From positions 186,001 through 250,000 of the forward strand of contig NBIV01000104.1 of assembly GCA_003194525.1 (NCBI GenBank): 64,000 bases of DNA, in the 5' to 3' direction. The DNA comes from Gracilariopsis chorda. Its lineage: Eukaryota; Rhodophyta; Florideophyceae; Gracilariales; Gracilariaceae. A program made the position numbers and the translations under genes. Under the pieces are notes generated by a model that did not search any database, had not been told where the DNA came from, and saw only the letters and a program-made list of their open reading frames with translations. Shown here piece by piece: positions 52,066 to 64,000 of this stretch (its first letter is position 1; the number at the start of each line of letters is the position of its first letter).

Positions 52066-52505
52066 CCTAGGGAGGTTTTAGGGTTTTCACGTCTATAGGT
52101 ATAGAGATATTAGATTTTAAGGATTTTTGAAAAGGGGCGGTTTTCAAGGATTTTATGGAGTGGGGATGATTATCGGGGAGTGGGAGATTGATGGTGATTT
52201 TAGGGGAGTGGAGGATTGTGGAGGATTGGAGGGATTTTATAGACCATAGCGGTTTGATGGATTTTAGAGGATTTGAGATATTTTATAGACTATAGCGGTT
52301 TTATGGATTTTTAGGGGATTTTAAGGATTTCAGAGGTTTTTAAGATTTTAATTGGATTTTAGAGGGGTTTTAGAGATAGGGGTTTGGTTTTCGAGTGGGT
52401 TTTTAGGATATCAGTTGGGTTTCTGGGGTTTCCCTGTGGATTGTAGATGATTTTTTAGGGGGTTTTAGGGGTTTTTAGCTTGATTTCCATGGGGTTTTAT
52501 GGGGT
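52066..52505 (+). repeat. G/T-rich degenerate repeat, left end of the candidate large element
   Basis: About 440 bp of irregular GGATTTTAGGGG/GGGGTTTTAGG units, with TTTTAGGG recurring many times and almost no C on this strand. It opens with CTATAGGTATAGAGATATTA (52101-52120). A sequence of the same kind, with a similar opening, starts at 63690. Confidence 0.75.
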
Positions 52506-52530
52506 TTTGTACATGTTGTCGTGGAGGCAT

Positions 52531-52567
52531 GTGCACAAATGGGGGAAGCCTTCCCCCATTTGTGCAC
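52531..52567. repeat. Perfect 18-bp-arm palindrome, copy A
   Basis: GTGCACAAATGGGGGAAG, one C, then its exact complement: 37 bp in total. It directly follows the G/T-rich repeat. Related palindromes are at 59032 and 59520. Confidence 0.92.
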
Positions 52568-52722
52568 GCAAGGCGTATTTGGTATTTTTTGGGACAAAAA
52601 CGCGGTGTTTGCTAGCACGGGAGTGGAAACGTATGCCACGTATGCATATCATTACAGTACCATTACAGTGACACCAACAGAGTTAAGAGGAGCAGGAATG
52701 AGAGGGTTCGGCAAGCAAAAGT

Positions 52723-52803
52723 CTCTGCGGTAGCAAAGTGGGTACTGGCCATACCCACGGCGCTGCTGCATCGATGATCGTGGGTTCGATTCCCGCATGT
52801 CGT
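52723..52803 (+). repeat. tRNA-like sequence (SINE head or tRNA pseudogene)
   Basis: An internal A box TAGCAAAGTGG (52731-52741) and a B box GGTTCGATTCC (52783-52793) have tRNA spacing, and the T arm folds (GTGGG, 7-nt loop, CCCGC). The acceptor stem pairs at only about four of seven positions, so this is not an intact tRNA. RNA polymerase III-transcribed SINEs have this structure. Confidence 0.55.
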
Positions 52804-53812
52804 GCAAGGCGTAGGCACTGGGGTGTCCAGGGGACGCTGCATTACGTGCGTTTCACCACACACGAATGTATTCCCTTTTCTTTTTCTTTTGGAGGAGTTT
52901 TTAGCTTTTAGGGTAATACTAGGTTGGCTCTACGATACCATATATGCTGGGGTTTCTCTGAAGTGTACTTTTTGTATTGCATGGAATTCTACATAGCCCA
53001 CTAGAACATCACACTTTTCTGGAGATGGGGTTGCAGTGAAGGGCAAACTATGGTGCTCTCGTCTTCAAGGTGCGCCAGCACAGGCGAAAGCACCGTGTGT
53101 CTACGGTGAAGTGGGCTGACGAGAACGTCCTACGACGGAGATAGTTTCAGTGGTCTATGGGTCTTACGAGCGCAGGGAGTGGTTTTTGGGAGTTTACACT
53201 CCCGCAGTCACGTAGTAGATGTAAGAAATATAGAAGGCACGCTGGTGTGACGTGCCGTAGAGTAACGCAATGAGAACGCGTGGCACTTACACAATACGCA
53301 AGTGATACGTCATGTGACGTTACTGTACGGACGCGCACTGTAAACAACATCGTACAGTAGACACTCACTGATTATTGAGATCCACATGGGATTGCTGGGT
53401 TTTCAGATGTTGAGTAATGCTCCCACGATATAAGAGAGCAGGGCCAGAGGGGGCATGTGCAGTGAATTCGGTCACACTTATGATAGAAGAGGATCTTCCA
53501 TATCTGCAAATGAGAGGCTTTAGAGGTGCTGAATTTGCTGCCCTGACAGGACAAGAGCCTTGCGTTACGATGTAAGGCCAGATGTACAACGCACTGTATT
53601 AGCGATCTTCAATAACAACCGTCTCACTTTTGTCACTGTCAGGGGCCTCAGGGAATAGGGTTCAGGTATTAGCGTGGGTTTTAAGAAGGATTTTCGACAC
53701 CATCGTCCCAAAGAACTAGCCGTTCAGATCATTGCCACTGAGTCATTGCAGTCCTGCCGCCCCAGCTCAAATCATCATTTGCTATATCCTGTTCACTGCA
53801 GCTCACACGGAA
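52804..53812. other. Intergenic region upstream of the recombinase gene
   Basis: About 1 kb without a supported frame. It includes the body of the possible SINE (if present) and the recombinase promoter. Confidence 0.35.
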
Positions 53813-56176
53813 ATGAAATCCGTACTTTTGCACACCGTAAAAAAGACAGTCGGTCGTCGGAAGGCTATAAGACCCCTTCCTCGCGATGCGATCGCCTCCA
53901 AACGCGCTAGCGGATCAAACAAGAGTAGGGTCTGCACTACGTCCCCACCAGCAAAACGACCCATCGAAGATGTCAGGGCTTCGTCCGAAACTCCTGAGAA
54001 TACCACTCATCATCGCCTTGAGAAGGGTACAGCAAAGCGTCGACACCTTGGAATTGGGGTGCCCTCTTCGGGTCTATGCATTCCGCGCTCCAGAGATGCT
54101 ACACCCTCCCGCGACAATGCCCAACGAAGCAATCCTGCATATCTGCCGCGTGACAAGATCGATGTCCTAGGAAATCGTGAGGACGAAGTTCAAGCTGTAA
54201 CTGTGCATGAGGAAGATGGCCATGCAGAAGTAGAAGTGAGTGCAGAAACAGTTCTTGGTACTGACAAAGGACTTCCTGCTGAAGACATGAATCTCGAGAA
54301 CAAGTCAGAGTCGGAACAGGGAGAGGACGGCGTGGAAGTGGATCTACGCCAGGTACTGAAGGAACAGAAAGAGGTGCTAAAGAGCAGGAATAATGAGCTG
54401 TACCACGAGCTTGCGGATATTTTCCAGAGCCCAAGGTCGAGGGGTAATGCTACAGCTCTTCTCAGTGTTCACTCTCTTTGGCGAGTCGCAGAAGGGAACA
54501 CACCAGAACCGGACACACCGGAGCTCCGGTGGAAGGCCATGGTCGATCTGACCCTCGCCCGAGACCCTGGGTACTTCACTAGTGAGGCTGCGAGAATGAT
54601 GAAAGCTTCGAGGAATGTTGGAAAAGGGTTGGCAGCGTACCCTGGATTGCGAGTGAATAGAGAGAACTGTCTGGATCTCGATGAGATATACAAGCTTCGG
54701 TACAGGACGAAGGAACTCATGAACATGTCATCTGGGGCCAGCTTCAAGCTTTTAGGAAGCATTGTTGGACAGTTTCTTCGCTGGTGTATCACTGCGAGGA
54801 AACTTGGGCGGAAAGATGGGTGGAAGCATAACGCGCTCTTCAGAAATATGGCCAACGAAGATCTGGTTCAAGTGTTCATCGACCATTTCCTCACAACAGC
54901 ATCAACATGCACTGTGGCCTCTAAGTGCAACGCGCTACAAACCGTGTGCAAGTACGCCAGCCTGAAGTTCCCTGACGAAGCTACCCGACTACGGATTGCA
55001 AGGGTTTCCTTGTACTTGACGAGTACATTCAATGCAGCAAAGTCCAAGTACCGGGAGACGGCACGAAAAAGGCAGGACGCAGACAAACGTATACAGGATC
55101 ACACCATCGTAACGGAGAAGCAGACTCAGAAAGGAATGCGTCTCGCTACGTGCGTATTGGATGACATCTGTGACTCGTTCAATGTCAAGGCGAAGAAGAA
55201 GGGAACGGAATCCGCCCAAGATATGCTACAGAAGACGAACGGGTTGGTCGAGAAGTGGTGCCTAAATTTTGTTGGGTTATTGACAATGTGTGGTGGGGGG
55301 CAGAGGCCGCAGGCTTACGCAAGACTGCAGTGTCCAGCACCGGAAACTCTTGAGTTATGTTACAGCGACGATTTTGAGGAAGAGGTTGTTTCCGTGAAGA
55401 CGTTTCGCGAAAAGACCGCCAGGGCGCTCGACATGCCGGATGTACTGTTTCCCATCAGCGTTCTACCATATATTGCGTTTCACATGGACTTTGTTCGTCC
55501 CGTCCTCATCCAAAGACGTCGCATTCCTCCATCAGATATATTCCAGAAGAATCAACCATTAATCTTGCATACACGATCCGGGGAATACATGACGCCAAGT
55601 AACATCAGCCACACCATCCGAACATTCATGCGCGGCGTAGACTCGCGCTTGACGAACGTAACCACGATGACCCTCCGTGCAAGCTACGCAACGTCCATGT
55701 TGCACAACTACCGCCAAGGGAAATTTGACTCTGAGAAGCTGACTGAGGATGAGTTCCTCGGTTTGGTAGCAAAGCAGATGAACACATCTGTGGAGCAGTT
55801 GCGTGGTACATACATGGCTACGTACTCAAAGGACTTCAAGCAAACCATGAAGCTCTTCACAAAGCACTTTGCTATTGTTATGAACGAGAACGGTGACGAG
55901 AACGATGTGTACGTTGAAGATGTGGAACGTGGAGACAAAGATGTCGGAACCAGAACGGGCCCCAACGAGGCTAATACGCGAAGTGAACCGAGCACAGCGT
56001 GGCCGCGTATGTCAGCTGCATTTGACGATACTGACAGTGATAAAGAGTGGATTCCAGAAACGCCTAAGCGGGGGCAAAAGACCAAGAACAGAAGGTGGAC
56101 CCTTCTTGATGAACAGAGTGTGGAAAATGGGGACGATGAAGACGTTTTCCCAGATGAGGAGGAGGAAACGGAGTAA
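53813..56176 (+). CDS. Tyrosine recombinase-like protein of a candidate mobile element
   Basis: 787 residues from ATG 53813 (MKSVLLHTVKKTVGRRK); the frame is also open upstream but without ATG. N-terminal 190 residues are basic then acidic and disordered; a helical core-binding-like domain spans about 200-440 (ELRWKAMVDLTLARDPGYFT, ITARKLGRKDGWKHNALFRN). The catalytic part has box I LLTMCGGGQRPQAYARLQ (Arg 498), box II VTTMTLRASYATSMLHNY (Arg 622) and a candidate tyrosine in LRGTYMATYSKDF (Tyr 667 or 671). The usual box II His (three before Arg 622) is Met, and the GHxS His position is Asn. An acidic C-terminal tail follows. Family membership is inferred from the R...R...Y pattern; the subfamily is unknown. 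Intact, unlike the other transposases here. Confidence 0.7.
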   Translation: MKSVLLHTVKKTVGRRKAIRPLPRDAIASKRASGSNKSRVCTTSPPAKRPIEDVRASSETPENTTHHRLEKGTAKRRHLGIGVPSSGLCIPRSRDATPSRDNAQRSNPAYLPRDKIDVLGNREDEVQAVTVHEEDGHAEVEVSAETVLGTDKGLPAEDMNLENKSESEQGEDGVEVDLRQVLKEQKEVLKSRNNELYHELADIFQSPRSRGNATALLSVHSLWRVAEGNTPEPDTPELRWKAMVDLTLARDPGYFTSEAARMMKASRNVGKGLAAYPGLRVNRENCLDLDEIYKLRYRTKELMNMSSGASFKLLGSIVGQFLRWCITARKLGRKDGWKHNALFRNMANEDLVQVFIDHFLTTASTCTVASKCNALQTVCKYASLKFPDEATRLRIARVSLYLTSTFNAAKSKYRETARKRQDADKRIQDHTIVTEKQTQKGMRLATCVLDDICDSFNVKAKKKGTESAQDMLQKTNGLVEKWCLNFVGLLTMCGGGQRPQAYARLQCPAPETLELCYSDDFEEEVVSVKTFREKTARALDMPDVLFPISVLPYIAFHMDFVRPVLIQRRRIPPSDIFQKNQPLILHTRSGEYMTPSNISHTIRTFMRGVDSRLTNVTTMTLRASYATSMLHNYRQGKFDSEKLTEDEFLGLVAKQMNTSVEQLRGTYMATYSKDFKQTMKLFTKHFAIVMNENGDENDVYVEDVERGDKDVGTRTGPNEANTRSEPSTAWPRMSAAFDDTDSDKEWIPETPKRGQKTKNRRWTLLDEQSVENGDDEDVFPDEEEETE

Positions 56177-57170
56177 AAGAATTTGGACGAGGGTGTTGTG
56201 CCTTGCTCCCGGGGAATGAAGCATTCTGCGCCCAGGAAAACACGAGGTCGCGAGAGAGACGGTTCGTTACAATGAGCCAGACACTCACCCATATTATTCC
56301 CAATAAACCATAGATGCGAAGACGGTAATAAACTGTGCACTTTTAGGTTCATTTCAAGACATTCAGTTGAAGCATTACAGGATGGGACAGTTTTCCACTG
56401 CCTGTGTGGGTGTAATTCATGTATCAAACTGGGGGCTCTAGAACTGGGTACAGGGGCACTGGGCACTGAGAATCTGGCTTATGTTCCATTGGAATGGCTT
56501 TGCATACTGTATCGTGGAGGTTTGTTCGACCACTTTGACTTGGTTCCTAGGTTTTCCGGTCACCGAGTGGGTTGTTAGGGGTTGACGGGTGGGCAGGGGC
56601 CAGTTCGCTCACTCGGCATCCAAGAAAAGCAGAGAGTTGTTATTCATAAATGTTCGGCGTTTAAATGAAAGCCTGCGTAAGCAAGTGAGTTCTTTTTCCA
56701 CATTACAGCGATTTGAGTTGAGTGGAGGAATGAAGGATTTGATGCCGCAGTCCACCAATCCCAGGAAAAGATATCATTGAATCACGTTGTGGTGGTCAAG
56801 GGAAGAGGTTCTGGTGGAGGGCTTCCGAACTTACCCTAGAAACATAGATCATAGTCAGAAACATGTCCGTGGTTAACCAGATCCTAGAATGTAAGAGCGG
56901 ATATTTTCTGGAGACAACATGCGATAAAGGAGTTGGGCCAGGCCTTTAGCCCGGAGACGGAGAAGAGATCATGCCAAGGGGTCCGGGTTCTTTCGTGATT
57001 GAGTGGGCTTTTGTAGTTGGAGTTTTTTTGCTGATTTCAATCGACTAATATGGAATAGGAGCGGGTGTCCATCAGGTTTGCGGTTCAGGTTTAGTATCGC
57101 CGAAAAACAGCTGGTCACTGTTGGCTCTTGTTCAGGCTTTCAGGGACCTGTCTAGTTCGGGAATGTCTCT
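56177..57170. other. Intergenic region between convergent genes
   Basis: About 1 kb between the ends of the recombinase gene and the 555-residue gene. No frame with features; G/T-rich in places. Confidence 0.4.
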
Positions 57171-58838
57171 TTACGCACTTTGGTCCGAATCGTCGTCACT
57201 GCTCTCACGGTAGTCGTCATCCTTCTCCTTCCCAGAGTGCTCGCCAGACGATCCCTCGGAATCGGAGCTGGATCCCGAGTCGCTCGTGCTCATGCTGTCC
57301 TCGTCATTGGAATCAGTCTCATTTCCGAGTTCCAGGTTCCACAATTCACCGAGGGCGATTGGAAATTGCAACGGCTTTCCAGTAAAGTGCTCATAGTAGT
57401 CATAAGGCACGTTATCTACCATGTAAGCGTCCGATCTACCTTGTCCCGTCCACTGTATACCATCCTCTTCGTCTTCACTGCATGAATCACTCATCGATGA
57501 GGCTTTATATTTCATAACCGGGGTTCGCCGGTATGCCTCCGCTACGCCTTGGGTACCAAGCTTCAGATTACAGGTTGAGTCTACCAGCCTGTCCCTTTTT
57601 CTTGTGTTTATCGTGACGTTAGTCACAGAGGGGATAGTACCAATGGTGCATTGCTCTTCTTCGTCACTGACATCGCGAAAGTCCTGCCATGCTATGCAGT
57701 CCATGACTTCATGGTAGCCGGGTTCCAGCAGGTTTGTAATATTTCCGTATTCTTCCAGATCTTGCGGGATATACGGCCTTACTCTCTTCATGAAAGCTGT
57801 TGTCCGGATGTGTAGTAACCTGACACGAACGGTATGTACGAATACGACCACTTCTTCCGTTCTATGAGCTCCGAGCCGCACGACAAACGTACTGGGCAAG
57901 ACGATGCTGCAGCCTACTGTCAGGTACAATGTACGCACTCTCTTTCCCTTGACACCCGATACAACGGGGGCTACCCATTCGTAATACTTCCCTCGAGACC
58001 CTCTCTCCCCGGTATGTCCGCGCACTACCTCTTCACTTACCGTGAGGTAAATTCCCGTGTCCTCGATGTTATCGGCGACTAGACCGCCGGCCATACTCGG
58101 TAGCAAAGTGTAGCACACGTACAACGCTTCGTTTTGCAGTCCTACCTGGTTCGGGGGCGTGTTTGGCCAGCAATACGTTCCGAGCGTACGGTCCTCAGAT
58201 GGGTAGACAACTTCCCTGGAGTACAACGTACTCCTGTCACATTGAACGTCAACATTTCCTATTGGAGTATCCACCAATCGAAGAAAGTCTTGCATTCCTG
58301 CCATTGGTGAAACCCTAACACAATAAAGACATAGACTCCAAGTTAGTGCTTTGATCTTAGTGTTTGCAGAATCAACCACACCAGATGGTAGCTTTTCTAC
58401 CTCAGAAACGTCCCCTTCTGTGCATACTCTGGATAGTACGTATTGGTGCGCAACGATCAAGGACTCTAGTGCATCACAATCCTTCTTCCTCCGGCTATCT
58501 GTCATACGGACTAGCTTCGCAGTGTAACGCAGTCCAACGTACTCGCTCTCCATTAGCACTGGTGTGTGCAGCGTACTCAGGTTAGAGGTTGCATCGCGGG
58601 AAGTAGGTTGCAGGTGTTTCAAGATGTCAGCGTATTCACATACGGTGAGGTTGTGGAAGCCCAGTCCGAATCCAAATCCCACCTGCAGCCCTTTGAAAGC
58701 CACCTTCATTACCTTCGCATCTGCGCTGTCTTCCATATTATCATTCACCATCTTCTCGGTTACCAAAATTTCTACTGGTCTTCTCTTCGATCCGATGAAG
58801 TTTGCCAGGGGCTCTGGCTGTTTGGAGGTCTTTCGCAT
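57171..58838 (-). CDS. Acidic-tailed protein of unknown family in the candidate mobile element
   Basis: 555 residues, ATG 58838, intact. The N-terminal quarter is basic; residues about 60-460 appear globular, with VAFKGLQVGFGFGLGFHNLT, LYVCYTLLPSMAGGLVADNI and VVFVHTVRVRLLHIRTTAFM segments; the final 90 residues are a Ser/Asp/Glu tail (DSGSSSDSEGSSGEHSGKEK). No signal peptide and no certain membrane helix. I do not recognise it. Convergent with the recombinase gene, divergent from the ParB-Ulp1 gene. The acidic tail, shared in character with the recombinase tail, suggests a nuclear or chromatin-associated protein. Confidence 0.65.
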   Translation of the reverse strand: MRKTSKQPEPLANFIGSKRRPVEILVTEKMVNDNMEDSADAKVMKVAFKGLQVGFGFGLGFHNLTVCEYADILKHLQPTSRDATSNLSTLHTPVLMESEYVGLRYTAKLVRMTDSRRKKDCDALESLIVAHQYVLSRVCTEGDVSEVEKLPSGVVDSANTKIKALTWSLCLYCVRVSPMAGMQDFLRLVDTPIGNVDVQCDRSTLYSREVVYPSEDRTLGTYCWPNTPPNQVGLQNEALYVCYTLLPSMAGGLVADNIEDTGIYLTVSEEVVRGHTGERGSRGKYYEWVAPVVSGVKGKRVRTLYLTVGCSIVLPSTFVVRLGAHRTEEVVVFVHTVRVRLLHIRTTAFMKRVRPYIPQDLEEYGNITNLLEPGYHEVMDCIAWQDFRDVSDEEEQCTIGTIPSVTNVTINTRKRDRLVDSTCNLKLGTQGVAEAYRRTPVMKYKASSMSDSCSEDEEDGIQWTGQGRSDAYMVDNVPYDYYEHFTGKPLQFPIALGELWNLELGNETDSNDEDSMSTSDSGSSSDSEGSSGEHSGKEKDDDYRESSDDDSDQSA

Positions 58839-59031
58839 AATAATAGTGGGGTTGAGGGGTTTTTATCGTGAGCAATCTTCGCAAGGTAGTCGCTTTAACC
58901 GTCGGGCAGGAGAGAAGGCAGGTAGAGGTTTTTAGTATTGCAGACTTAGGTTTAGGGGAGGTTTGACGCAAAACAATACATGCTTCACGGGAGGGAAGAC
59001 GTAGTCATCACGTCAAAGAGGGGTGCTGGCC

Positions 59032-59058
59032 GAAATGGGGGAAAGTTTCCCCCATTTC
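59032..59058. repeat. Palindrome copy B
   Basis: GAAATGGGGGAAA, G, then its exact complement. The right flank (TGCACATGCCTC) matches the reverse complement of copy A's left flank, so the conserved unit extends beyond the hairpin. Confidence 0.9.
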
Positions 59059-59519
59059 TGCACATGCCTCTGGACCGAGTTGGGGTTCACTTAATTGTTT
59101 AAAAGTTGGAATTGCAGAGTGATTTGCTTTCACGAGAGATGGCCTTTGCTGAACGTGTAGAATTGGGAAGGCGCTCTTAGTGCCGTTGCAGGAACTTACA
59201 CGTGCTTCGCTGGCCTTGTAACCAATGAATGCCCTCCAGATGTACACGTCGCCTGGGTTGGTTTTAGGGTGTTTACAGTGCACGCCGTCGAGAGGCCGTG
59301 ACAACGTGTCACGGCCTGCACTTTGGCCACGTACTTTCTCCAAAGGCTGTACTTCAGCCATGTACCGGCACGGTACCTTGGTACAGGATGTGCACGGCCA
59401 CCTGTGCGCCACTCGTTTTTATTGTGACATCTTTCGAATAACTAATCACAGACAGGGCCTTCCCGAAAGTTCTGTCTTGTCTGCATCCAAGGATAGATAC
59501 CATTTATGGACGCCGTGCG

Positions 59520-59546
59520 GAAATGGGGGAATGTTTCCCACATTTC
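59520..59546. repeat. Palindrome copy C
   Basis: GAAATGGGGGAA, TGT, then TTCCCACATTTC: 12 bp arms with one mismatch. Followed by TGCA like copies A and B. Confidence 0.85.
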
Positions 59547-59640
59547 TGCAACTACCACATACGACCTCCACGTCCTCACCTAGTGGCGCCTACTCCATTT
59601 CCTTCTCGCCCCATCCAACAACTCCCGTGGTACATCCTCG

Positions 59641-59873
59641 GTACCGCTAGCCGCCGACATCTCCTGCGTTCCCTTCTCAGTACCGCTATCTACCGATGCC
59701 TCCCGCGTTTTCGCTTCGGTGCCGTTAACTGCTGACGCCTCCCGCGTATCCTTCGATCTACCGCTAACTACCGACGTCTGCCGTGTTTCATTCCTGGAAG
59801 GACTAACCATTGACGCATCCCACTTCCCGTTCCAGGTACCGCGACCCAACGGCGTATCCCACATTTCCTTCTA
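59641..59873. repeat. 39 bp minisatellite, about six units
   Basis: Units begin GTACCGCTAGCCGCCGACAT (59641) and GTACCGCTATCTACCGATGC (59680) and repeat every 39 bp with increasing divergence. The period is a multiple of three: in the minus-strand frame from 59864 it gives 13-residue repeats of the form SAVNGTEAKTREA. That frame has no other support as a gene. Confidence 0.85.
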
Positions 59874-60318
59874 AGTTTCGCCGATCACGGACGCCCCCAT
59901 CGTTTCCATCTCGATTCACTCTCCATCTGTGCCACCCCGCCTCGTCTTTTCGATTCCATCAACCCCTGCGCTACGCACATGTTATTGTCGATTTAATCAA
60001 CAGCTCAGAAACCTCGTATTCAAATCTGGACATCGCCAACCGCTGACGCCACCTGATCTTGGGTTTTCGATCCTGGCAGGCAGAAACACTGCCAGCACTT
60101 GCTTTCCGGTATCACCAACAACCGTACCAGGGGGTATTATTGTTTACATTCCCATCAGTCGCACACTTCGTAGGATCCACACCTGGTTTCCATCACTCAC
60201 AGTGTTTTACTCTCGATCGTAGTTTATGTATTTCGGTGTTTTGGACGGGGTACAACTAATCTTCTGGTCTAAACTAACTCTGTGTTCCTAAAGTGAGTTT
60301 CTACCGTTCTAACAAGAG

Positions 60319-63300
60319 ATGAATATTGGTGCACTGGGCTTTTCGGACAACCTATCCCAAGAAATCTACCGGCGAATAGAGGTAGGAAGATGCAGCCCCA
60401 CCCGCTATGGCAGTGTGGACATGTTTGTCGGCCCGTTCCTGGGACGCAATACTTCGCATGTCCGACTAGAAGGATTGATAGAAGACATAGGTGCACCGCA
60501 AAGATTTCAGAGCAGTCAACCTATAATAGCCGTCAAGTCAAAGTCCGGACCTACGAGAGGAAAGTTGATTGTAATAGGGGGTGGTCATCGCTTTTTGTCA
60601 GCCGCGCGCTCGCTACATGCCGTCGTACTCCCGTACAAGCTAGTTTCCTTTACAGGGCTTGGATCGGAAGGGGAAGATCTCGATGTTTTTGAGTGCAGTG
60701 GGATAATAACTTTCCATGTTGAAGTCAATGAACCTCGTCCGGAGAAGTACGGTTTCATGCAACAGGTCAATCTTTACGCAGATCTCAAAGCACACTGGCG
60801 CTGTCTTGAAAAGATTCGGGTGTCGAAGCTTAGAGGAAGGAAAGGAAAACCGCAGGCTATAAGTTACAACAAGCTCTATCGGTTTTACGAAGCGTCTTCC
60901 AAGTTAGCTGGAACAAAGTCGAGGTGGGCGATCGAGTTCCTCGCAAGAAAGGATAACAAGAATATTGAGAACAAGCCGGCAACGCGGAGACAGTACATGG
61001 CTGGGACCGACCGGCTTCTCCATGCCGGCGTTGTCCCGTATCTGGCGCACTTGGAGAATATCGGTGTTGCATCGTTCAACAGGTCTTCATTGTACGCTGT
61101 CAGAAACTGGTCTTCAGACAAAATCAGGCACGTTGTTGAACTCTGGAAGGTAAGGAGAAGGACAGGCGTTAAGGTAAGGTATGCATTTAGTGAGAAGGCT
61201 GGCAGAGAGGTTGATGGGAAGGGGCGTGGTCGTAAGTCCAAGCAGAAACTTGAAGATGTTGTGGACTCGGTCTTAACAGGGAAGAGGGGCAGAAAAGGGG
61301 AGGAGATTTCAAAACCAAAGCCACAGAATGAACCACATGTGACATCAGAGAGCAGAGGGGTTACCGGGGAACCACATACCGGAGACTTGATCCCCGGACG
61401 ATGTGAACCCTCGCCAGTGAGGAGAGAGCGGGAGTTTATGACTAACGTTTCACATACCCGCCATGCAGCGGCTTTTACCAGAGCTGAGAGCCACAGCGCT
61501 GGAGGTTTAGTGGGGTTTTCTTTCCCTGACCAGGCTCATTATCAACGTGGCGCATCATACCTTGATGATGTGGGAACTGAGGAAGACGTTAATAATGTCA
61601 TGAAAGGGGGGGACAGCGTCCGCTTTTCCAAGGGTACAAATCTGACGTATGAATCGTCGAAGGATGAAATCGAAGAGAAGGATTCTGGATGTAGAAGAGG
61701 GTTCACGAAGCCGTCCGTGCTAGGAAAGATTCCAGACCAGGATGCAGTGTGCAAGGACCCCGGAAGTACGGGGTTCACTCAACCTAAGTTATCGGATAAG
61801 GAAAGCCTTAGCGCAGGACATTTTGTCGCGGACGCGAATGCAAGCCATAGTTCCAGGAAGAGATATGATATCGACGTTCGAATATCCTCCAGTGTACCAC
61901 AGCGTATCGCGGAACATGCATTGAAAGAAGACTCTCTGTGTGCAGTACCGGAGGTGGAAGAGTCCTGTCCCGTACAGTCTGCTAGGGCCACGGAGGGAAA
62001 GATGGATCGTACGGTGTTGGCTAGTGTGGATGAAGCGTGTGCACTACTCTGCAGCCTTGCACGGAAGAAGGCGCCAGAAAAGAATGGGGTTTTAGATGTG
62101 GACCTAGAGAATGAGATCAAAGTTGCTGCGCATGTGAAAGAAAGGCTCATTGCGGAAGGAGGGAAGTCCGATCTCCCGTTACCGGCAGTCATGAGTGACA
62201 TGGCCGCTAAGCTTGGGGATGCAGAGAAGAAAGAGGTCAAGCTTGTCGTCACGGGTGGCATCTTAGAGAACACTTTTACCCTCTGTGAGAGTGATATCAC
62301 TCCCATTCGCCAGTTCCATATCGGTACAGATCGGTCCGTTATGTTCACCGTGTCATTCCTCACGAAGTGGACAAGTGATTCAGTGAACGCGTGTCATCTT
62401 CTGGACTCACTGCAGACCGCCGGATGGTGGGACGTTAAGTTATCTCAGGAAAAGGATCGCCTGCGTAGTCTCATTGAAAAAGTCAATGGCGAAGGGCCGT
62501 TCTCGTCGAGGTGTCATGAAGCAGTATGGGGTTCTAGTGTGTGTGTAATGCCAATGTGCGGGGCAGGGCACTGGTCTCTTATTGTACTTTTGAATCTGAA
62601 GGGGTGGCAGGACATCGTTGGAAGACGAAAACGTTCGCGGGTGCGGAACTCAGACGGGCTTCCGCGTATATTGTTCTTGGATAGTATGGGTCCCAGCTCG
62701 GCTCATAAGGAAACCTGTACTAACATTTTCTACTATCTGAGTGCATGCTACCCTGGGAAAAGAAGACCATCACCGAGGTCTCTTGAAAAGAACATTCCAA
62801 GCTGTCATTTCTATCTACAGCTACAGAAAGAAATGGAGTGTGGCTTTTTCGTCGGGTATCACATATCTCTTTTCACTCGTGCTTTTCACAGGATCGGGGG
62901 ACTTACGTCTCTGCAGATTGAAGAGTTGCTGAGAGAAATGAGTGAGTTATACACGTTTGAAGAATACCAAACAGACGTTCTGCGCAGACTGGAGTATTAT
63001 GTGATGAAGTACAAGGATAACTCGAGGCGGGTGATCTGTGAGCCTGTTTGGATGTGGGGTTCAGAACCTGCAGCAGACACAATGGGCGCCTCGGAGAATA
63101 TCATCTGCAGAGAAGACAGTCTGGGTTCTCCGCTGAAGCGGAAAGCGTCGGGGGATCCTGAAGGGCCTGCGTGCAAGAGGGGTCTAATGGGTCAGAAGGG
63201 CAATTTTCGGAAACCTGTACGAGAGAAACGCGGGACTGCTGTGGAGCTGGGGAACGTGCTCGAGAAGCAGGGCCAATTGAAACTCGTGGGCTCTAGAAGT

Positions 63301-63651
63301 CAGACGGATTTGGAAAAGGTGGAACTTGGGAAGAAGGAAGAAGGGAGTTGCGTTCGTGAAGGGGTTGTGTTGCATCCTATGGGAGGTTGGGTTTCGGGTT
63401 TTGTTTTGGATTTGGTGAATGGTGCAATGAAAGGCGATTCGCGAGCCACAGAGGGGGTTTTAGGCACACCACAATGCCCGGGGAGTATTGAAGTTGATAG
63501 AGGGGCTGGGGAGAAGGATGTGTTCCTTGGCATGGTCCAGGAAGCGATGGTGCTCGCACGGAGAGTCAAGAGTAATGCAATTAGGCGCCAGTCGGAGGAG
63601 TGCAAGCAACAGATATGTGAGTTGCTTTTAAAGATGAAAACGGAGGGGTGA
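60319..63651 (+). CDS. ParB-like / Ulp1-type (C48) cysteine protease fusion protein
   Basis: 1110 residues, ATG 60319, intact. The N-terminus (about 30-110) ends in KLIVIGGGHRFLSAARSLHA, the G-x-HR-x3-A-x-L core of ParB/Srx-like domains, preceded by an IIAVKSKSG strand. Residues 170-350 are basic and helical; 350-570 look disordered. A Ulp1-like domain follows: His751 in AGHWSLIVLLN, Asp788 in ILFLDSMGPSS, Gln836 and Cys841 in LQLQKEMECGFFVGYHISLF, the His-Asp-Gln-Cys set of SUMO/ubiquitin-like proteases, in order and with normal spacing. The tail is basic, then helical. Likely role: a nuclear DNA-associated deSUMOylase or self-processing protease; inference. Divergent from the 555-residue gene. 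Confidence 0.78.
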   Translation: MNIGALGFSDNLSQEIYRRIEVGRCSPTRYGSVDMFVGPFLGRNTSHVRLEGLIEDIGAPQRFQSSQPIIAVKSKSGPTRGKLIVIGGGHRFLSAARSLHAVVLPYKLVSFTGLGSEGEDLDVFECSGIITFHVEVNEPRPEKYGFMQQVNLYADLKAHWRCLEKIRVSKLRGRKGKPQAISYNKLYRFYEASSKLAGTKSRWAIEFLARKDNKNIENKPATRRQYMAGTDRLLHAGVVPYLAHLENIGVASFNRSSLYAVRNWSSDKIRHVVELWKVRRRTGVKVRYAFSEKAGREVDGKGRGRKSKQKLEDVVDSVLTGKRGRKGEEISKPKPQNEPHVTSESRGVTGEPHTGDLIPGRCEPSPVRREREFMTNVSHTRHAAAFTRAESHSAGGLVGFSFPDQAHYQRGASYLDDVGTEEDVNNVMKGGDSVRFSKGTNLTYESSKDEIEEKDSGCRRGFTKPSVLGKIPDQDAVCKDPGSTGFTQPKLSDKESLSAGHFVADANASHSSRKRYDIDVRISSSVPQRIAEHALKEDSLCAVPEVEESCPVQSARATEGKMDRTVLASVDEACALLCSLARKKAPEKNGVLDVDLENEIKVAAHVKERLIAEGGKSDLPLPAVMSDMAAKLGDAEKKEVKLVVTGGILENTFTLCESDITPIRQFHIGTDRSVMFTVSFLTKWTSDSVNACHLLDSLQTAGWWDVKLSQEKDRLRSLIEKVNGEGPFSSRCHEAVWGSSVCVMPMCGAGHWSLIVLLNLKGWQDIVGRRKRSRVRNSDGLPRILFLDSMGPSSAHKETCTNIFYYLSACYPGKRRPSPRSLEKNIPSCHFYLQLQKEMECGFFVGYHISLFTRAFHRIGGLTSLQIEELLREMSELYTFEEYQTDVLRRLEYYVMKYKDNSRRVICEPVWMWGSEPAADTMGASENIICREDSLGSPLKRKASGDPEGPACKRGLMGQKGNFRKPVREKRGTAVELGNVLEKQGQLKLVGSRSQTDLEKVELGKKEEGSCVREGVVLHPMGGWVSGFVLDLVNGAMKGDSRATEGVLGTPQCPGSIEVDRGAGEKDVFLGMVQEAMVLARRVKSNAIRRQSEECKQQICELLLKMKTEG

Positions 63652-63689
63652 GCACGTTCATTTACTTTACATTATCTTCTTGGTGCGGT

Positions 63690-64000
63690 ATAGTAAGGGG
63701 TTTCATCATAGGAATAGACTGCCACAGGGGTTTTTTGATCTATAGCTATAGAGATATAGGATTTTTTGGATTTGGAAATTCGGTGGGAGTTGATGGACGT
63801 TAGGTTTTTAGGGAGGATGAGGATTTTAGGACTTTAGGATTTGTGGTGGATTTTATAGGATTTCTGGTTTTCAGGATTTCAATGGGATTTCATTTGGATT
63901 TCGTTGGGTTTTTATGGACTTTAGAGGTGTTTGAGGATATTGGGGGGTTTTTAGGGTGTTTTTAGGATATGGATGGGATTTCATTAGGACTTTAGGACAA
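63690..64000 (+). repeat. G/T-rich degenerate repeat, right side (continues past window)
   Basis: Opens with CTATAGCTATAGAGATATAG (63741-63760) and continues as irregular GGATTTTAGGA/GGGTTTTTAGG units, in the same orientation as 52066-52505. The right boundary is outside the window. Confidence 0.72.

Follow-up and report, generated by a model that had tools for sequence, protein, structure and literature searches.

Mobile elements known to dwell at telomeres are mostly retroelements. Yeast Y' elements, integrated HHV-6, HeT-A/TART and the Athena terminons display end arrays, loss of distal parts, or telomere-seeding terminal repeats, but they are retroelements or a herpesvirus and have other proteins than the element reported here. 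The TATE elements (telomere-associated transposable elements) of trypanosomatids, which are YR retrotransposons, form tandem clusters at a fixed position within telomere repeats, GGG^TTA, and encode reverse transcriptase/RNase H (PMC6681497). The oomycete CryptonF and CryptonS are tyrosine recombinase DNA elements, some of which also carry a C48 (Ulp1) peptidase; they have 5-6 b terminal direct repeats and are not described as targeting telomeres (PMC3212892). A tyrosine recombinase is also linked to telomere-repeat insertion in the nimaviruses Majanivirus and Pemonivirus, which are crustacean viruses, with pemoniviruses at 300-360 kb (PMC10871703).

The locus studied here lies in a window of 64,000 nucleotides, a stretch of contig C104 of the red seaweed Gracilariopsis chorda. 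It holds one unit, E1, and the start of a second, E2, which runs on towards the contig end (C104:262541). The features, in window positions, are as follows.

52076..52083, + strand: single telomere unit TTTTAGGG immediately before E1, with unrelated DNA to its left
52084..52520, + strand: E1 left-end repeat, consisting of TTTTCACG, the imperfect palindrome TCTATAGGTATAGA, then a G/T-rich stretch of ~420 b that resembles degenerate telomere
52531..52567, no strand: palindrome GTGCACAAATGGGGGAAGCCTTCCCCCATTTGTGCAC with core GGGGAANNNTTCCC, element site 1
53732..56176, + strand: ORF of 814 aa resembling tyrosine recombinases, its ATG likely at 53813; R525, R649 and Y694 are active-site candidates
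57171..58838, - strand: acidic protein ORF, 555 aa, pI 4.97
59029..59062, no strand: element site 2, a palindrome in the region that separates the divergently oriented acidic and Ulp1 genes
59517..59550, no strand: palindrome, element site 3
60319..63651, + strand: 1110-aa protein with a conserved N-terminal domain (~1-310) and a SENP/Ulp1 (C48) protease domain (~635-912)
63652..63727, + strand: remnant of the E1 3' region, where E1 is broken, lacking the fourth ORF and right repeat, and homology to C497 stops
63728..63730, + strand: GGG spacer separating broken E1 from the E2 left end
63731..64000, + strand: E2 left-end repeat (second tandem element), consisting of TTTTTTGA, the perfect palindrome TCTATAGCTATAGA and G/T-rich sequence; E2 continues outside the window

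A sequence-only reading of this DNA had reported three long intact frames and three palindrome copies, all of which were found, and had taken the two G/T-rich repeats, which share openings (TCTATAGGTATAGAGATAT at 52092, TCTATAGCTATAGAGATAT at 63739), as the bounds of one element. That boundary did not hold: both repeats are left ends, of the successive tandem elements E1 and E2, and their interpretation as a terminal duplication of E1 was rejected; the second belongs to E2. E1 is a nearly complete copy whose right end has been lost, because its alignment to C497 ends at ~63727, 76 b past the Ulp1 stop codon, and it has no fourth ORF or right repeat like those in C182 and C266. The left-end sequence of the E1 type also opens the copy on C743, and an E1-like left-end motif is present on C743, C70, C497, C379 and C406; the E2 type opens the copies on C172 and C266 and is identical across the 60 b compared.

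When the genome was searched with the three proteins, 59, 57 and 58 matches were obtained, and the same layout recurred elsewhere. With order and orientation kept, the acidic gene has the recombinase-like gene as its neighbour in 24 of 28 genome clusters and the Ulp1 gene in 27 of 29 places. The three genes thus form a single conserved unit, as the sequence-only reading had proposed; its own refuting condition, that they would be single-copy and never occur together, did not hold. Although the frames are intact in the window, as ordinary host genes would be, the match numbers and the linkage already contradict the idea of three host genes, which is barely credible. No description of the three-protein combination was found in literature titles and abstract openings, a coverage that takes in few subscription papers, and searches of viral_contigs, for which the queries were three alignments and two individual proteins, found no relatives.

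In the recombinase-like protein, R525, R649 and Y694 are invariant motif residues in the R-R-Y order expected for tyrosine recombinases, and all three equivalents are replaced in one paralogue fragment. We take these residues to be box I, box II and the nucleophile, placed by eye from known motifs with the histidines not located. The earlier assignment agrees with the motif residues; family profile, PDB and fold tests were empty. Comparison by hhalign with integrase-like ORFs of the same genome was empty, against a weak reference set of five sequences, one with the wrong frame: its longest frame lies on the strand opposite its PF00589 match and so is not the recombinase frame. On the strength of its motifs, the 814-aa ORF is a candidate tyrosine recombinase. 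The 1110-aa protein had been read as a ParB-Ulp1 fusion, and here the Ulp1 part was borne out, as both profile and fold matched a SENP/Ulp1 (C48) protease, whereas the N-terminal domain gave no ParB match in Pfam, PHROGs, NCBIfam or a whole-genome PF02195 search; in the predicted model, residues 1-140 had block means of only 22-36 pLDDT. Unlike in SENP6/7-type SUMO proteases, the protease domain sits in a mobile element and is fused to this N-terminal domain (~1-310). PDB profile searches with alignments of the three proteins gave nothing meaningful.

The palindromes exceed chance (shuffled mean 0.04 per 76.5 kb), and their core is absent from the window up to ~52 kb. All 11 contig stretches examined carry 2-7 palindromic sites each, and pairing of the arms exceeds column expectation at several positions. 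Such sites could be centromere-like, with a ParB-like partition protein, if the unit were an integrated virus-like or plasmid-like replicon, and solo repeats and tandem arrays would also fit an episome. However, Pfam scans of the four ORFs found no capsid, polymerase or partition ATPase, and the empty viral_contigs and ParB searches likewise count against such a replicon, which we regard as quite improbable. The element resembles the telomere-inserting nimaviruses in tying a tyrosine recombinase(-like) gene to telomere-repeat insertion, but at ~12.9 kb, with no viral genes seen, it differs from those crustacean viruses (PMC10871703).

Complete copies of ~12.9 kb were found on C182 and C266. 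Each has one 200-270 b repeat at both of its ends, the two ends aligning across 270 b in C182 and 198 b in C266, and runs straight into terminal telomere repeats. The order is a direct terminal repeat, the recombinase-like gene, the acidic gene on the opposite strand, the Ulp1-protease gene, sometimes a fourth gene, the second terminal repeat, and telomere. Each direct terminal repeat comprises TTTT followed by CACG or TTGA, the 14-b palindrome TCTATAGCTATAGA, and a G/T-rich telomere-like tail. The fourth ORF, a small coiled-coil-like gene of some lineages, has five copies (C182, C497, C379, C266 in pieces, and E2) and is not universal, since it was not found in the C140 and C173 stretches, although both extend beyond the Ulp1 gene. 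The genome also contains solo end repeats with a telomere cap, and copies truncated distally, after which comes telomere or a new element.

Genome searches with the opening motifs gave 29, 4 and 18 matches. Among 32 distinct junctions, the left end starts with TTTT directly after G in 31, which is the GGG^TTTT register of the telomere repeat, and is preceded by 0-1 telomere units in 30. Of 18 contigs that are at least 50 kb long, 15 have elements facing the nearer contig end; telomere arrays touch element sequence on C182, C266, C743, C9 and C345, and paired (tandem) left ends occur on C104, C497, C379, C247 and C299. The sequence-only reading, right about a mobile unit, had missed this telomeric location, which is the main feature. 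The telomere link could be an assembly artefact around an ordinary interspersed Crypton-type transposon, given that ends of draft contigs fall at repeats and that a C48 peptidase accompanies the tyrosine recombinase in oomycete Cryptons (PMC3212892), but the adjoining telomere arrays and the insertion register make this highly improbable. The G. chorda element, like CryptonF and CryptonS, is a DNA element with a recombinase-like gene and a C48 (Ulp1) domain, and differs from Cryptons as described in its 200-270 b repeats, telomere register and additional genes. Like TATE, it lies in tandem at one telomere register (GGG^TTTT versus GGG^TTA) and has a candidate enzyme of the recombinase type. 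In contrast to TATE, no reverse transcriptase/RNase H was matched by Pfam in the three ORFs, their homologues or the fourth ORF, and the G. chorda element has an acidic protein, a Ulp1 protease and long terminal repeats that pass gradually into telomere.

Repetition, fixed gene order, the fixed GGG^TTTT left boundary, mostly outward orientation, repeats running into telomere, and distal truncations are the observed basis for what we consider a fairly probable explanation, namely that these are mobile DNA elements of one telomere-specific family, whose tyrosine-recombinase-like protein inserts them at short or new telomeres. Passive copying of subtelomeric repeats is unlikely but carries real weight. 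Here, eroded chromosome ends that keep a few telomere bases would invade the telomere-like seed next to an element of a different chromosome and copy that element to the tip by break-induced replication, of which yeast Y' elements are an example at chromosome ends, without transposition and with the element genes as passengers or helpers of copying. The junctions, with their short telomere seeds or runs of G, would fit this, and so would the common orientation, tandem arrays, distal truncation with re-capping, and the nearly identical elements on C104 (E2), C172 and C266; the C497 and C379 copies are also near-identical. Against this, the left boundary is exact to the nucleotide across differing flanks, with similarity in only 5 pairs among 32 distinct flanks, one being the C497/C379 copies, and copying would often bring common flanks too. 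In addition, dN/dS was below 0.5 for all three genes in comparisons between lineages.

If the elements are telomere-specific and mobile, as we prefer, the recombinase-like protein would act on GGG/TTTT or on the palindrome of the terminal repeat, cutting and joining DNA there and so setting the element onto telomeres that are short or have just been healed. Units could be excised or added in tandem when one terminal repeat recombines with another, which would explain the solo repeats, and the G/T-rich tail would seed telomere addition, so that the element can cap a chromosome. A protein of the element probably binds to the palindromes, and the probable role of the SENP-like protease is to remove SUMO from host proteins that act in silencing or at telomeres. 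The elements seem to represent a type of DNA element not yet described, one that lives at chromosome ends and may help to rebuild them. More tentatively, and with some doubt, a DNA-only (non-retro) recombinase element may join eroded or healed ends at GGG^TTTT with its own telomere seed, aiding end maintenance beside telomerase, and would then be a recombinase-based counterpart of the Drosophila telomere retrotransposons. If true, a multi-gene DNA element with one telomere register, its own telomere-seeding end and a SUMO-protease-like domain would offer a testable route for mobile DNA to live on, and perhaps rebuild, chromosome ends; with complete, truncated, tandem and solo states in one genome, the order of events is directly testable.

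Searches of the element for tRNA and Rfam families returned no match. A tRNA-B-box-like stretch nevertheless recurs.

We searched the 91.3 Mb genome (1081 contigs, designated by C-numbers; the window is C104:186001-250000) and obtained at least 57 matched pieces for the acidic protein, at least 58 for the Ulp1 protein and at least 59 for the recombinase-like protein. After the 16 of 59 recombinase matches below 45% identity were excluded, the remainder formed 28 clusters, and a convergent acidic gene lay within 3 kb of the recombinase-like gene in 24 of them, with 31 of the 57 acidic places entered in the count. A divergent acidic gene was found within 3.5 kb of the Ulp1 gene in 27 of 29 N-terminal-part Ulp1 matches (one overlapping C138 match excluded). 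At one of the two misses, C140:205051, telomere repeats cut the start of the acidic gene, as read by eye, and the other, C96:159032, is without an acidic gene. This genome-wide linkage confirms the proposal of the sequence-only reading that the three genes form one unit, and shows the unit to be repeated. BWQ96_08309, a Gracilariopsis chorda Ulp1 homologue, is encoded on C182 at 100%. Homologues in other assemblies included four acidic/Ulp1 pairs whose partners have longest contigs of equal length (10578, 9018, 7136 and 6517 b), and the 10578 b pair (P0004, P0016) has near-identical counterparts in G. chorda.

The same reading had taken two G/T-rich repeats in the same orientation as the bounds of a single element, and this had to be revised, since the second repeat (63731 on) opens another element, E2, which follows the first copy, E1, with the same gene order and orientation. 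Over the 60 b compared, the E2 left end matches those on C172 and C266 exactly. E1 is cut at ∼63727, where homology to C497 stops, and is followed by GGG and then the E2 left end. A fourth ORF lies 3' of the Ulp1 gene on C182 (212 aa), C497, C379 and in E2, and in pieces on C266; the C140 and C173 stretches showed no such ORF. A second terminal repeat lies ∼130-210 b past this ORF on C182 and C266, and coordinates on C182, C266 and C497 give a unit size of ∼12.8-12.9 kb. At C182:13.8-14.4 kb, a ∼620 b remnant of one element type runs directly into a complete element of another type, with the joint GAGAGGG^TTTT.

Three pattern searches returned 29, 4 and 18 left ends, or 35 in total once overlaps were removed. 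Flanks of 34 entered the junction count, the extracted stretch L064 being outside the script's motif, and 32 were distinct. The base preceding TTTT was G in 31 of the 32, and three or four Gs stood ahead of TTTT in 28, counts with a mild bias toward G because most left ends came from a pattern including GGGG (up to 3 mismatches in all); two patterns without G gave the same picture. Complete telomere units at the junction numbered none in 19 flanks, one in 11 and two in 2, with stretch L055 counted as zero, its tract being visibly telomeric but irregular. The host telomere repeat is an irregular T4-6AG3-4, terminal on contigs such as C60, C95 and C140, and some tracts are internal (e.g., C3, C58). 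The left junction register is GGG^TTTT of the telomere repeat. TATE is reported to insert at GGG^TTA of the kinetoplastid repeat, the same relative position (PMC6681497).

Among contigs with a strict telomere tract, 6 of 17 carry a left end, compared with 0.41 expected. On contigs of at least 50 kb, all left ends face the nearer end, within 50 kb, in 15 of 18; this outward-facing rule fails on C152 and C406, and C173 has one left end each way. The inward-pointing left ends at C152:11327 (+) and C173:116104 (-) could each represent an interstitial copy, a former chromosome end or a misassembly.

On both C182 and C266, the second terminal repeat closes a complete element, and telomere repeats then fill the contig to its last base. 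On C743, a copy of E1 (96-98%) stops within the Ulp1 gene, with telomere from there to the contig end, and on C9 and C345 nothing of the element but the opening ∼100 b of its terminal repeat precedes telomere. On C247, an element's acidic gene spans 121844-123466, the following left end comes as early as 124422, and the contig gave no Ulp1 match. From these layouts, right ends are variously cut and left ends are exact. The elements begin at a fixed left boundary in the telomere register, occur in tandem arrays and as solo repeats, and show distal truncation with re-capping. Passive copying between chromosome ends, the main rival explanation, is disfavored, since the flanks differ, with only 5 similar pairs among the 32. 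Under active insertion, the 814-aa protein would carry out site-specific recombination at the terminal repeats, the element may land on short telomeres, its G/T-rich tail may seed a telomere, and a desumoylating role might counter silencing. There are published precedents for telomeric recombinase elements in TATE (PMC6681497) and nimaviruses (PMC10871703), and for a recombinase with C48 in oomycete Cryptons (PMC3212892). The literature searched, by titles and abstract starts, describes this combination nowhere; gene combination, terminal architecture and host group appear new to us, and the ingredients have precedents.

Of 19 dN/dS comparisons, 3 were saturated. Six pairs with dS of 0.095-1.49 gave dN/dS of 0.13-0.45, and ten close pairs, with few changes, scattered from 0.34 to 2.3. 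Between E1 and C497 (window 53732-63651), dS was 0.095 in the recombinase gene and 1.2-1.4 in the acidic and Ulp1 genes. Judged from these rates, E1 is a mosaic, its recombinase gene near C497 and its other two genes distant, and this contrast suggests an exchange of modules between lineages.

Across the 11 contig stretches examined, we counted 40 palindromes with core GGGGAANNNTTCCC, 29 of them distinct, which follow the left repeat or separate the acidic gene from the Ulp1 gene; all 7 on C104 lie inside the two elements. Pairing between arms was above column expectation at positions 7, 10, 12 and 15 (by 6-8 of 29), less so at 8, 9, 11, 13 and 14, and not at 16-23, the related sites not being independent. 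Far outside the arms, positions 33 and 35 still showed an excess of up to 5, which leaves just the strongest arm positions standing out. A B-box-like GTGGGTTCGATTCC marks a tRNA-like stretch (window 52718-52801; ∼467-551 of L031, the stretch with E2) that drew no tRNA call and no Rfam match. The GTGGGTTCGATTCC stretch lies ∼690-790 b past the left end in 7 copies, and its exact match is absent from 5 other contig stretches.

The genome also holds a second, diverged family of acidic/Ulp1 pairs (∼26-39% identity), in which the two genes are divergent and, in several copies, ∼420-540 b apart:

C58:220831-225301, pair beside an internal telomere tract
C70:32666-37227, pair
C96:109799-114391, pair
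C584:14394-18872, pair
C627:1030-5352, pair
C378:558-4831, pair
C355:10063-12656, pair
C117:207137-209408, pair
C140:102095-106300, pair
C140:203932-208528, pair

Some second-family copies are far from contig ends, and one C140 copy is cut by telomere. PF00589 (phage integrase) had no match at the element's recombinase places, its 13 genomic matches lying elsewhere (e.g., C111:13886, C235:19901, C1:536086, C417:3379). A further repeated unit, present on C243, C458, C702, C453 and C518, carries recombinase-like genes in open frames of 603 and 527 aa; on C458, the candidate catalytic residues are kept in one gene and replaced in the other.
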